DNA of 25,443 nucleotides. It comes from a virus. The stretch is taken from positions 1-25,443 of the IMG/VR virus record IMGVR_UViG_3300017758_000121; one strand, given 5' to 3'. A program made the position numbers and the translations under genes. The notes beneath the pieces are model-generated. The model was not told where the DNA came from and ran no database searches. It was given only the letters and a program-made list of their open reading frames with translations. Shown piece after piece: positions 16,566 to 24,465 of this stretch (within the stretch, counting starts at the first letter, position 1; every line of letters begins with the position of its first letter).

Positions 16566-16830
16566 AATTGTGGACTAGCAATAGTTCACGTAAGCTATAC
16601 ATAACAACGATATAAATATCCACATGTTGTGTATAGAAACGCTATCTACACAAAACTAGCAATAGTTTTGTACCATAACTCAAGCGATTGAGTTGTAGGT
16701 AGCTTGTAGCACATAAGATAGAACTAACTAACCTCTCGCTCAGACTAGTCAAAGTATGATAACGAGCCGAGGCATACACGAAGTTAGTTGTCTCAGACTT
16801 GTGTGTTACAAGCTATCTATAAGAAAGGAA
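16566..16830 (+). ncRNA. Candidate structured RNA with three GNRA-tetraloop hairpins
   Basis: There is no gene for about 275 bases, but pairing is dense. GTGGACTA-GCAA-TAGTTCAC lies at 16570-16589. CTATACA and CAAC (16595-16608) pair with GTTG and TGTATAG (16626-16636). ACAAAACTA-GCAA-TAGTTTTGT is at 16650-16671, and AACTCAA-GCGA-TTGAGTT at 16677-16694. A long-range stem joins GGTAGCTTGTA (16698-16708) to TACAAGCTATC (16807-16817), extendable by A-U pairs. Within it AACTAAC (16722-16728, or the register 16726-16732) pairs with GTTAGTT (16783-16789). Three of the loops are GNRA. This is far more than expected for AT-rich spacer. It may be a free RNA or a long leader of the following operon. 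I recognise no known RNA class. Confidence 0.55.
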
Positions 16831-16840
16831 AGGTGATTAT

Positions 16841-17134
16841 ATGTTACCTGACGGCATGGTTCGTAAAGAACCACCTGCGACTACACAACGTGGTGGGCGA
16901 CAACCTAAAATTCTGTCACATGACAAAGTTATAGTGTTGTTAAACAATCCTAACACGTGGTATGTAATCGCTACACAAGAGAGATGGAGTAGTGGTGTTG
17001 TACAAAACATACAACATATGAAGCAACAAAACATTTCCCACTTAAAAGATAAAGGGTCTTTTGAGTGCCGACAAAGAAAAAATGAAAAAAATGGTGTGGA
17101 CTTGTATTGCAGGTTTGTACCGATTGGAGAATAA
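16841..17134 (+). CDS. Hypothetical basic protein (97 residues)
   Basis: ATG 16841 is preceded by AAAGGAAAGG at 16824-16833. The protein begins MLPDGMVRKEPPATTQRGGR, then has a beta strand (KVIVLL), NPNTWYVIATQERW and a basic helix, ending VDLYCRFVPIGE. The order 'Trp-x-hydrophobic, Ser/Thr-rich helix, F-E-x-R, then a V-x-Y-x-R-strand' resembles small actinophage proteins of unknown function as I remember them; this is weak evidence. It is the first gene of the ATPase operon, three bases before the ATPase start. Confidence 0.65.
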   Translation: MLPDGMVRKEPPATTQRGGRQPKILSHDKVIVLLNNPNTWYVIATQERWSSGVVQNIQHMKQQNISHLKDKGSFECRQRKNEKNGVDLYCRFVPIGE

Positions 17135-17137
17135 CAA

Positions 17138-17863
17138 ATGAGTAAAAAACAAACATGTTGGGAATTAGCCCAACTCGTTATTGGTAAAACTGATAGAGTA
17201 CTCTTATACGGACCCCCAGGGACAGGTAAGACACAATCAGCAGTGAAAGAAAACGTACCATTGAACATCAATGGTGACCCAAATGTGTATCAAATTACAC
17301 TTACAGAGGAAAGCACAAGTGCAGACCTTATGGGATATTATCAGATAGGAGAAAATCAACAGTTCGTATGGCATGACGGAATTGCTATACAGGCTTGGCG
17401 TAATGGTGGTAGATTGGTTATCAATGAGATAGACCACGCTTCACCAGACGCAATGACTTTCTTACATGCAATACTTGATGACAAAACTATTGCAGGTATC
17501 ACTCTCAACAACAGAGAAAAAGAAACTGTTAGACCTGCAGAGGGGTTTCAAGTAATTGCAACTTCTAATGCAGACCCTGAGAGTTTGCCACAAGCAGTTA
17601 AGGATAGGTTTCCTATCTCTATTAACGTAGATAGTATTCACCCTAAAGCACTTGAGAAATTTCCTGAGAGTTGGAGAGATGTTATAAACGATACATCTAC
17701 TATAGATGATGAGTTTGAACGTATTTCTATTCGTAAATGGTTAGAGTTCTTTAAACTTACAGATGAGTTATCTATGGATATGGATACAGCAGGTCAGTTA
17801 GTATTCGGTGATAGAAGTGAAGAATTACTTGACGCTATCAAGCTATCTAACATAGAAGAATGA
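17138..17863 (+). CDS. MoxR-type AAA+ ATPase
   Basis: A 241-residue AAA_5/MoxR-like ATPase. Walker A is GPPGTGKT at 25-32, the ADLMGYY segment at 62-68 is typical of the group, Walker B is LVINEIDH at 93-100 (Glu97, Asp99), sensor 1 is ATSN at 141-144, and the arginine-finger region is KDRF at 155-158. Such ATPases remodel a VWA-domain partner; known examples are MoxR, CbbQ, GvpN, and CobS with CobT. Here the partner is two genes downstream, a HELGH-plus-VWA protein, and the three genes overlap by ATGA and TAATG. CobS-like ATPases occur in several marine phages. The true substrate of this one is unknown, and cobalamin synthesis is not supported by any neighbour. Confidence 0.9.
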   Translation: MSKKQTCWELAQLVIGKTDRVLLYGPPGTGKTQSAVKENVPLNINGDPNVYQITLTEESTSADLMGYYQIGENQQFVWHDGIAIQAWRNGGRLVINEIDHASPDAMTFLHAILDDKTIAGITLNNREKETVRPAEGFQVIATSNADPESLPQAVKDRFPISINVDSIHPKALEKFPESWRDVINDTSTIDDEFERISIRKWLEFFKLTDELSMDMDTAGQLVFGDRSEELLDAIKLSNIEE

Positions 17864-21359: not shown

Positions 21360-22394
21360 ATGGCAGACAAGCCTGTTAAATTGCTATCCCCTTTCCCAAA
21401 GAAGCTAGTTAAAAAAGCTCCTGCAGGAAAGTTCGGGGATTACGTTCCACACGCTAATTATGTAGAAAGACTACGTGATAGTGGTGTTAAATACTCATGG
21501 TCATGTGAACCTGTATATGGTTTACATAAAGGTGAGAACAGAATAGTGGGTGCTAAAGGTACGATAACTATTGAAGATATGGGAAGTTATGACGGCTTTG
21601 GAGATATTGATACGTTCAAGTTAGATAGTCCAAAGTTTAATGACGGAACTAATCTTAAAGACGCAGAAAGTGACGCATTCAAAAGAGCATGCATGCGTTT
21701 CGGTTTAGGTGTAGAACTGTGGTCGGGTTCTGATGTATCAGAAGAAGAACATACTGCACTAGCAACTACAAGTGACCCTGATACAGACAATGTTATGGTT
21801 ACTAAGATAGATATGAGGAAAAAGGAAAATAAAATTCCTGCTCCTGAGCCTAAACCCTTAGAAGAAATAGGTGAAGACGAAGCACCTTTTAACGATACCT
21901 CTCAACCTACTGCTGATAAAGTAACATTTATTAATCATACAGTTGAAAAGATGTTTGAGGGGGTTGATAAAGGAAAGAAACAATTTGCTCTTGACCTAGC
22001 AGATAACTATGCAAAGGTAAAGAAGTACCCTGATAAATCTCTTTGGAGTGACAGTGAGATTGACGGATACTTAGCTAAAATAGAACTTGGATTATCAAGT
22101 GATGTTGCAGATGTTAGTGATGATGATGACATTATTACTAAAGCAGACGCAATACTAGGAGGCGTTACTGAAATGGTAGAAGATATGCAAAAAGTTAGAG
22201 ATGATTTGAAATGTCCTTTTTGTCAAAACAAAGTATATGACAATAGAAGTGACAAGAAATCAGATAGAAGTCCTGATTTTGTATGTTCAGGTCGTGACCA
22301 AGATGAATGTCCTGCTCACACAGGTAAATGGCGTAAGTCATGGTGGTTAAACTCCAATGATTTACCGAAAGAGTGGGGATTTGGTAACCAATAA
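21360..22394 (+). CDS. Rad52-like single-strand annealing protein with C-terminal zinc finger
   Basis: The first 125 residues match the Rad52/Sak-type annealing core: YVERLRDSGVKYSWSCEPV (34-52), a beta-hairpin region with GAKGTITIEDMG (64-75), and the signature ESDAFKRACMRFGLGVELW (103-121), typical of Rad52-family phage proteins. These proteins bind single-stranded DNA and pair complementary strands in recombination or end repair. An acidic linker (130-260) follows, then a C-terminal zinc finger with CPFC (285-288), C309 and C317/H320. The ribosome-binding site is GGAAGGAAA. The neighbouring metallophosphoesterase and PD-(D/E)XK-like genes form a recombination set with it. Confidence 0.8.
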   Translation: MADKPVKLLSPFPKKLVKKAPAGKFGDYVPHANYVERLRDSGVKYSWSCEPVYGLHKGENRIVGAKGTITIEDMGSYDGFGDIDTFKLDSPKFNDGTNLKDAESDAFKRACMRFGLGVELWSGSDVSEEEHTALATTSDPDTDNVMVTKIDMRKKENKIPAPEPKPLEEIGEDEAPFNDTSQPTADKVTFINHTVEKMFEGVDKGKKQFALDLADNYAKVKKYPDKSLWSDSEIDGYLAKIELGLSSDVADVSDDDDIITKADAILGGVTEMVEDMQKVRDDLKCPFCQNKVYDNRSDKKSDRSPDFVCSGRDQDECPAHTGKWRKSWWLNSNDLPKEWGFGNQ

Positions 22395-23936: not shown

Positions 23937-24193
23937 AAGTAGTATTACACAGACTTACATATTATGAGGACGGTGAAAAGTTTTATGCTTACACTACCGA
24001 GTATAAAAAACTAGAAAGACTATTACTATTGTGGAAAGAAAATGGTAAAGATACTACGTACGATAGAGTAGATACATTTACTTTTTCAATTGATAAACTA
24101 GAAATGTTTACACAATTTATTAACAAAGCTATAGCTACATACGATAGTGGTACAAACAAAAATCCTTGGTTTGAAGAAGTAGGATTATATTAA
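23933..24193 (+). CDS. Hypothetical protein (86 residues)
   Basis: ATG 23933 (MKVVLHRLTYYEDGEKFYAY...) sits in the stop codon of the zinc-ribbon gene. It has an alternation of strands and helices (KVVLHRL, EKFYAYTTE, YKKLERLLLLWKEN, TFTFSIDKLEMFTQFINKAI), suggesting a compact alpha/beta fold of the ferredoxin type. No family is recognised. It is coupled to the following HNH gene by TAATG. Confidence 0.6.
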   Translation: MKVVLHRLTYYEDGEKFYAYTTEYKKLERLLLLWKENGKDTTYDRVDTFTFSIDKLEMFTQFINKAIATYDSGTNKNPWFEEVGLY

Positions 24194-24465
24194 TGGACAA
24201 CTTATCAGAAATGCGAGAAGTAGCTCTTAAAAGGGCTAATTACGCGTGTGAGTGGGCTTACTGTACAGATAATAAATGGTTAGAGTTAGCTCACATACAT
24301 GCAATAGGTATGGGTGGTAATCCAAAACGTAAGTTTGACATTAATAATGTAGCTATATTATGTAAACATCATCATGATGTATATGACGGTAGGCAACGAA
24401 CAGGTGCTAACTTTGCTTATAGGGAATTGCTTACAGGTTTTCTTTCAAGGAAACCTACTTCTTAA
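24193..24465 (+). CDS. HNH endonuclease (90 residues)
   Basis: A compact HNH nuclease: C19-x4-C24 (CEWAYC), LELAHIHAIGMGGN (30-43) with the first His pair, NNVAILCKHHHDVYDG (51-66) with the Asn, C57 and the terminal His residues. The Cys pair and CKHH hold a structural zinc. Small HNH nucleases near packaging genes can cut DNA for terminase; others are homing enzymes. Here it ends the early operon, so a packaging, degradation or recombination role is possible. Its last 11 bases overlap the end of a gene on the other strand. Confidence 0.85.
   Translation: MDNLSEMREVALKRANYACEWAYCTDNKWLELAHIHAIGMGGNPKRKFDINNVAILCKHHHDVYDGRQRTGANFAYRELLTGFLSRKPTS

Follow-up and report, generated by a model that had tools for sequence, protein, structure and literature searches.

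The swapping of protein-coding cassettes between constant borders is well known, and the attC sites of integrons combine folded inverted arms and a variable terminal region with the exchange of cassettes. In polycistronic early mRNAs, RNase III sites of the T7 type take the form of intercistronic hairpins of about two duplex turns, located near start codons. Another described system is that of the promoter early stem-loops (PeSLs) of T4-type phages, promoter-stem-loop units which shuffle the genes between them (Arbiol 2010, Comeau 2014, as cited in PMC4503421).

Here we describe an RNA locus found in a viral DNA of 25,443 nucleotides (IMG/VR record IMGVR_UViG_3300017758_000121), the whole of which is referred to as the window. 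The locus resembles PeSLs in consisting of repeated, mobile intergenic stem-loop cassettes which mediate shuffling in phage genomes, and differs from them in that the exchange affects the RNA enclosed by the stem and that a shared strand has two alternative partners. The early promoter of a PeSL was not found: in a search directed at promoters other than phage-specific ones, promoter-like sites occurred at chance level, with none inside 16566-16840. The likeness to riboswitches and bistable leaders lies in two exclusive helices which share one strand upstream of a gene; the present elements differ in having no recognised aptamer and many interchangeable modules flanking the shared strand.

Compared with the T7-type RNase III sites, the elements possess an uninterrupted helix, a conserved clamp, a long exchangeable cargo and an alternative pairing, and their cleavage is putative. 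GOLLD and ROOL (PMC12286853) are likewise ornate RNAs of unknown function, some of them phage-borne, whereas here we are dealing with small modular arrays instead of one conserved fold, and with no Rfam match. The differences from integron attC sites are the lack of an integrase (0 of 14 relatives) and of ORF cassettes, a fixed orientation, and exchange that takes place inside the stem. In TIGR (PMC12045711) and CRISPR arrays constant and variable segments also alternate in phage DNA, but the constant parts of the present arrays are complementary rather than direct, and their variable segments consist of long, folded modules unequal in length. A literature search of partial coverage returned no paper with both clamp sequences, and structured RNAs swapped inside a constant RNA stem are undescribed in searchable sources.

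Structure of the window RNA

The RNA occupies a gap (16566-16840) between two plus-strand genes of the 25-kb viral contig. The original prediction, a multi-branched phage RNA with three GNRA hairpins of 7-9 pairs, named thermodynamic folding as a check, and the plus strand proved to fold far below chance: its minimum free energy (MFE) of -88.9 kcal/mol compares with -54.2 (sd 4.9) in dinucleotide-shuffled controls (z -7.1; 0 of 200); the minus strand of the gap gave z -3.8 against shuffled controls. All three hairpins are present, the 8-pair GCAA one including one G.U pair. The predicted long-range stem of at least 11 pairs (16698-16708/16807-16817) is also there and is actually larger, comprising 21 pairs (16695-16715/16800-16820), or 23-24 in the MFE structure. 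The inventory was thus accurate for the features it named, but a 12-bp hairpin (16595-16606/16625-16636) had not been itemised. The absence of a described class was likewise confirmed: searches of the window and 15 related loci with the covariance models of Rfam 15 produced no family reaching its gathering cut-off, a permissive Rfam search of the region gave no significant match, and ARAGORN detected no tRNA or tmRNA in the window and 35 loci. A Y RNA/Ro relationship, considered on account of the VWA gene, was rejected, the VWA protein having no Pfam match at the cut-off used and the RNA no Rfam match.

Comparative analysis placed the region among the copies of a recurring architecture, r1-Y-R-X-r2. 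Its 9-nt strand R (GUAGGUAGC) has complements on both sides: r1, upstream, with which it closes module Y, and r2, downstream, with which it closes cassette X. Outside this core, on its upstream side, lie an 8-bp GCAA hairpin (16570..16589; 16570-16577/16582-16589) which appears in both the MFE and the centroid structures and has a related form (GTGGACTAGCAATAGCTCAC) in L004 and L262, and the 12-bp hairpin, a leader module defined by the fold (16595..16636). The clamp strand r1 (GCTATCTAC, 16641..16649) is assigned as the partner of R in the Y-closed state by folding the transcript as far as R, by r1:R covariation and by motif enrichment. The Y module of the window is a three-way junction carrying a GCAA hairpin of 9 bp (16650..16671; 16650-16658/16663-16671), with compensatory changes at 4 pairs among 7 phages, and a GCGA hairpin of 7 bp (16677..16694; 16677-16683/16688-16694), both supported by compensatory changes and RNAalifold.

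The shared strand R (GTAGGTAGC, 16695..16703), whose pairing with r1 or r2 is indicated by covariation and toggle folds, is followed by the left strand of the X inner helix (TTGTAGCACATA, 16704..16715), which belongs to a 21-bp arm kept in 171 elements. An exchangeable cargo of 84 nt (16716..16799), delimited by comparison among phages, precedes the right strand (TGTGTGTTACAA, 16800..16811), recognised by arm conservation, and r2 (GCTATCTAT, 16812..16820), which according to the fold and arm conservation pairs with R in the X-closed state (21+ bp). In relatives, other complementary pairs substitute in the inner helix. The next segment (16821..16843) contains a Shine-Dalgarno-like stretch (aagaaaggaaaggtgattat) and the ATG of the next gene, 20 nt past r2. 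This first gene after the RNA encodes 97 aa of unknown function (16841..17134) and is followed by an AAA+ (MoxR/CobS-like) gene (17138..17863; PF07728); all of these features are on the plus strand.

The predicted RNA is genuine, undescribed, multi-branched and encoded on the plus strand, but it consists of two exchangeable modules and not of a single fixed fold. The docking of GNRA loops, also raised originally, is not a defining feature of the element, because the GNRA hairpins belong to one Y type that is replaced in many relatives.

Occurrence and genomic placement

Relatives were found via the AAA+ and flanking proteins and via the arm sequence; more than 100 viral contigs share the arms L = GTAGGTAGCTTGTAGCACATA and R-arm = TGTGTGTTACAAGCTATCTAT. 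From related contigs we collected 171 distinct elements, in which the inverted arms bracket a variable terminal region of 9-143 nt. The elements are intergenic and co-directional with the genes, and on neither strand does an ORF of at least 80 aa contain any of the 171. In 47 elements a start codon with a Shine-Dalgarno-like stretch is situated within 40 nt of the R-arm, compared with 1 on the opposite side and strand, and the R:r2 helix often terminates 11-35 nt upstream of the start codon; about three quarters of the elements are not immediately before a start codon. As for the suggestion of a leader of the AAA+/VWA operon, the RNA is indeed located there, but this placement is unspecific, many arrays preceding other small genes.

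A phage contig of about 40 kb usually has one array locus with 1-3 elements. Core genes of the AAA+/exonuclease/VWA lineage are common to 99 of the 130 element-bearing loci, and the carriers are a family of uncultured tailed phages. The window element itself is 100% identical in three loci (L002, L003 and L082). Blastn searches of named phages with the region, with the surrounding 8 kb, and with the Y1 module (see below) plus arm gave no match, and a pattern search of 85,000 prokaryote genomes revealed no genuine element; two bacterial pattern matches, in which the second arm is absent, were dismissed as chance. In one relative, G002 (L296-L298), genes for a SET-domain protein and for a capsid protein of the SU10 type are present, and no integrase was found.

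Pairing of the shared strand

The strand R (RTARRTAGC) and its complement r (GCTAYYTAY) show strict alternation in 361 of 375 neighbours, r1-Y-R-X-r2 being the usual arrangement, and the density of clamps is 5.7/kb within arrays versus 0.08/kb elsewhere. Among 166 elements chosen by their 21-nt arms only, 133 have a strict r1 motif within 110 nt upstream (1.2 expected); in 100 of these 133 it does not double as an arm of a further cassette of this kind. The sequence of r1 is often GCTACTTAC and that of r2 GCTATCTAT; their three differences are all C/T, and therefore both retain pairing with R. Covariation of r1:R was detected at three positions in 106 distinct triples (Fisher p 0.002, 0.004 and 0.001, values which serve as guides, the rows being related).

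Homologous phages lacking conserved pairing, which were named in advance as grounds for abandoning the prediction, were sought and not encountered: in the window-type Y module of 7 phages, 95.9% of cells are paired, 6 pairs are changed on both sides and 0 of 500 shuffles was as good, while sliding the alignment reduces pairing to about 40% or less. RNAalifold recovers the identical three-way junction in the relatives unaided. A second module, Y1 (e.g. L147:1614-1678), which is absent from the window, has an invariant AGUARGA/CCCU/ACYGAA core on freely covarying helices. Covariation of Y1 in 32 sequences, a set that includes whole-clamp replacements, amounts to 0.514 versus 0.227 shuffled (0 of 500) and to at most 0.10 when slid. 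The Y1 model detects some 50 strong copies across 70 sources, the 32 training sequences included, and Y1 by itself represents a new, compact motif.

The 171x21 arm pairs comprise 2896 Watson-Crick, 658 G.U and 7 A.C cells, pair counts here and below being inflated by lineage relatedness. The predominance of G.U over A.C means that pairing is selected on one strand only. This is the coding strand, because start codons lie downstream on the same strand (47 versus 1). The R:r2 helix together with the inner X helix, in 76 distinct arm pairs, contains 41 double changes that are paired versus 8 unpaired. A scan for triples, which required nothing of the inner helix and set aside helices shorter than 18 bp as wrong-strand or chance matches, yielded 194 distinct triples with 41 different inner 10-mers, yet the helix is uninterrupted over 19-28 bp, with a mode of 22-23.

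The r1:R and R:r2 pairings are mutually exclusive, and covariation supports each of them; in this respect the elements have what is expected of a riboswitch, namely mutually exclusive pairings upstream of a gene. Folding the window transcript up to R leaves r1:R closed, and the full transcript favours R:r2 (X-closed -80.9, Y-closed -74.3). If r1:R is imposed on the full transcript, the energy rises by 6.6 kcal/mol and the X inner helix remains intact; the two states can therefore interconvert by a 9-bp branch migration. The median cost of the toggle in the 194 triples is 4.7 kcal/mol, and 187 of them have Y-closed prefixes, a proportion which is partly built into the search pattern and does not constitute independent evidence.

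Exchange of cargoes

The cargo inside X is swapped whole between relatives. In three loci whose AAA+ proteins are 100% identical (L061, L064 and L066), both flanks are 98-100% alike and enclose three unrelated cargoes; for L061 and L066 the identity of longer flanks is 99.1% across 448 nt and 99.3% across 1 kb. Altogether, 22 pairs with the same flanks and different cargoes were identified, not all of them independent. Conversely, L005 and L067 have a 56-nt cargo in common (100% identity), while their flanks are unrelated and their AAA+ and VWA proteins share 64% and 43% identity. The core domain of the window cargo (16726-16783) recurs in other phages within different stems, in both X and Y positions. 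Three consecutive cassettes with different cargoes were observed at L004:3049-3718, together with a second copy of the window cargo core in Y position.

The segment swapped between L025 and L035 includes inner stem pairs, which fits short-homology recombination and not a site-specific cut. It should be noted that the contigs are metagenome assemblies, in which repeat mis-joins are conceivable, yet independent assemblies give the same combinations, as with the window element in L002, L003 and L082. In the cases checked, the cargo has a single orientation relative to the arms; apparent minus-strand matches, examined as possible inversions, were elements on the wrong strand, 5 of which were reoriented. 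Searches of 14 long relatives for tyrosine and serine recombinase genes were negative (controls were positive for the tyrosine search). A gene resembling single-strand annealing recombinases (21360..22394, plus strand) has homologues in relatives; it is assigned by a remote profile match (phrog_3290, E 2.5e-8; Rad52 in Pfam only at E 0.01), and the annealing protein is plausibly a candidate for driving the exchange of cassettes. Rad52-like phage recombinases carry out relaxed homologous recombination (PMC3945230).

Cargoes alone fold only weakly better than shuffled sequences (mean z -0.63). Within the loci searched, 1032 of 1043 cargo matches fall within arrays, and 10 of the other 11 are variant-clamp arrays. 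An antisense relationship of cargoes to phage genes was rejected, there being one outside-array match of 26 nt (e143 in L156). Cargoes with hairpins resembling the T-arm of tRNA (e.g. GTAGGTTGAATTCCTAC) were noted at L076:2971-3128, L004:3301-3444 and L046:2993-3096; some of them have acceptor-like closing stems, and ARAGORN does not recognise them.

Discussion

We propose, with roughly even confidence, that the locus is a co-transcriptional strand-exchange element which ends as an RNase III-type processing stem with an exchangeable RNA and diversifies by short-homology recombination. During transcription, R would pair first with r1, giving the Y-closed state; on its emergence r2 would displace r1 by branch migration while the X inner helix stays formed. 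The X-closed state would then place an unbroken helix of about 22 bp directly ahead of the following gene, where host RNase III, or a comparable nuclease acting on double strands, could cut it. Cleavage would separate the cistrons and either free the cargo or leave it exposed, in both cases as a small structured RNA, and the Y-closed state would delay or prevent this cleavage. The involvement of RNase III is suggested by the length and position of the helix: its 19-28 bp correspond to the duplex of about 20 bp or more, within a polycistronic transcript, that such a site calls for, and the neighbouring genes, judging from their spacing, probably form one transcript. A search of 14 relatives revealed no RNase III gene, so that a host enzyme would act. 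Cargoes and Y modules would be swapped between co-infecting relatives by homologous recombination via the constant 9-21-nt arms, plausibly driven by the phage single-strand annealing protein. Strand exchange at a nuclease site is the most economical reading of the transcribed strand, the location in pre-gene gaps, the perfect two-turn duplex with its unconstrained sequence and the upstream competitor. Computation establishes the RNA strand, the two alternative pairings, the modular exchange and the position ahead of genes; the nuclease, the kinetic order, the recombinase and the part played by the cargo are proposals. Points against this reading are the three quarters or so of the elements that do not immediately precede a start codon, the weak folds of isolated cargoes, the remote match behind the recombinase assignment, and the great diversity of Y modules and cargoes, for which a common molecular output is not obvious.

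It is possible, though in our view rather unlikely, that the stem is a mere holder and that the cargo acts in trans, as a small RNA decoy or regulator directed against a variable host or competitor factor in an arms race. The rapid turnover of whole cargoes on a constant stem would be explained in this way, as would their nature as a private pool almost exclusive to these arrays, and several of them carry T-arm-like hairpins. This explanation does not account for the upstream r1 in 133 of 166 elements or for the placement relative to start codons, and the cargoes match no known RNA nor, with one exception, any non-array sequence in the loci searched.

Less probable still is a riboswitch-like leader, in which Y would be the aptamer, r1:R its P1, and binding of a ligand or protein would set R:r2 and thereby the translation or processing of the next gene. 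Mutually exclusive pairing with covariation on both sides and the invariant AGUARGA...CCCU...ACYGAA core of Y1 on variable helices are in line with such a function; many unrelated Y types in otherwise similar phages, and the exchange of X as well, argue against it. Moreover, a search for an expression platform found no terminator-like site in the RNA, and the Shine-Dalgarno stretch is unpaired or weakly paired in both states, so that the window shows neither a terminator nor sequestration.

We regard it as very improbable that the elements are selfish recombinogenic spacers, whose identical arms spread modules by recombination and which are merely tolerated in gaps: their consistent absence from genes of at least 80 aa and the frequent swapping would agree with this, but the strand-specific wobble, the compensatory changes and the constant helix length require selection on RNA. 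A folded recombination site acting at the DNA level, like an attC site or cruciform, is scarcely credible despite the inverted arms around a variable region of 9-143 nt and the modular exchange, given the single cargo orientation in the cases checked, a G.U polarity that follows gene direction, and 14 long relatives without a tyrosine or serine recombinase.

Returning to the strand-exchange element, the speed at which its cargoes are replaced points to conflict with hosts or with other phages, but recombination alone could suffice. We tentatively suggest, at somewhat less than even confidence, that the arrays represent a new phage genetic system: a hypervariable RNA-cassette locus in which cartridges are exchanged between co-infecting phages and a three-strand toggle controls their release or display, countering host defences or competing phages. 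The turnover of cargoes outpaces that of the neighbouring genes; such a difference is usually the mark of an arms race or of a hotspot of recombination, and here both can be put to the test. Nature also provides, in the clamp, a design for a switch based on co-transcriptional strand displacement, available in hundreds of natural variants, and the arrays offer new compact RNA folds in large number.

Several further observations concern individual modules. The window has an HNH endonuclease gene at 24193-24465. A GCAA hairpin (CTAGCAATAG) also occurs as a solitary structure elsewhere in these phages (L129:3375, L168:3851 and L228:13101), and a module whose core resembles ATAGCGTGCTGT...TAGGTGGAA recurs within or behind the arrays of several phages (L027:2646 onward, L054 and L025:1600). 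Finally, the cargo core of the window contains an 8-nt palindrome (16743-16750), which across phages takes the variant forms GAGTACTC, GACTAGTC and ACGTACGT and the near-palindrome GACTGGTC; such a varying palindrome might be expected if the RNA dimerised by kissing loops.
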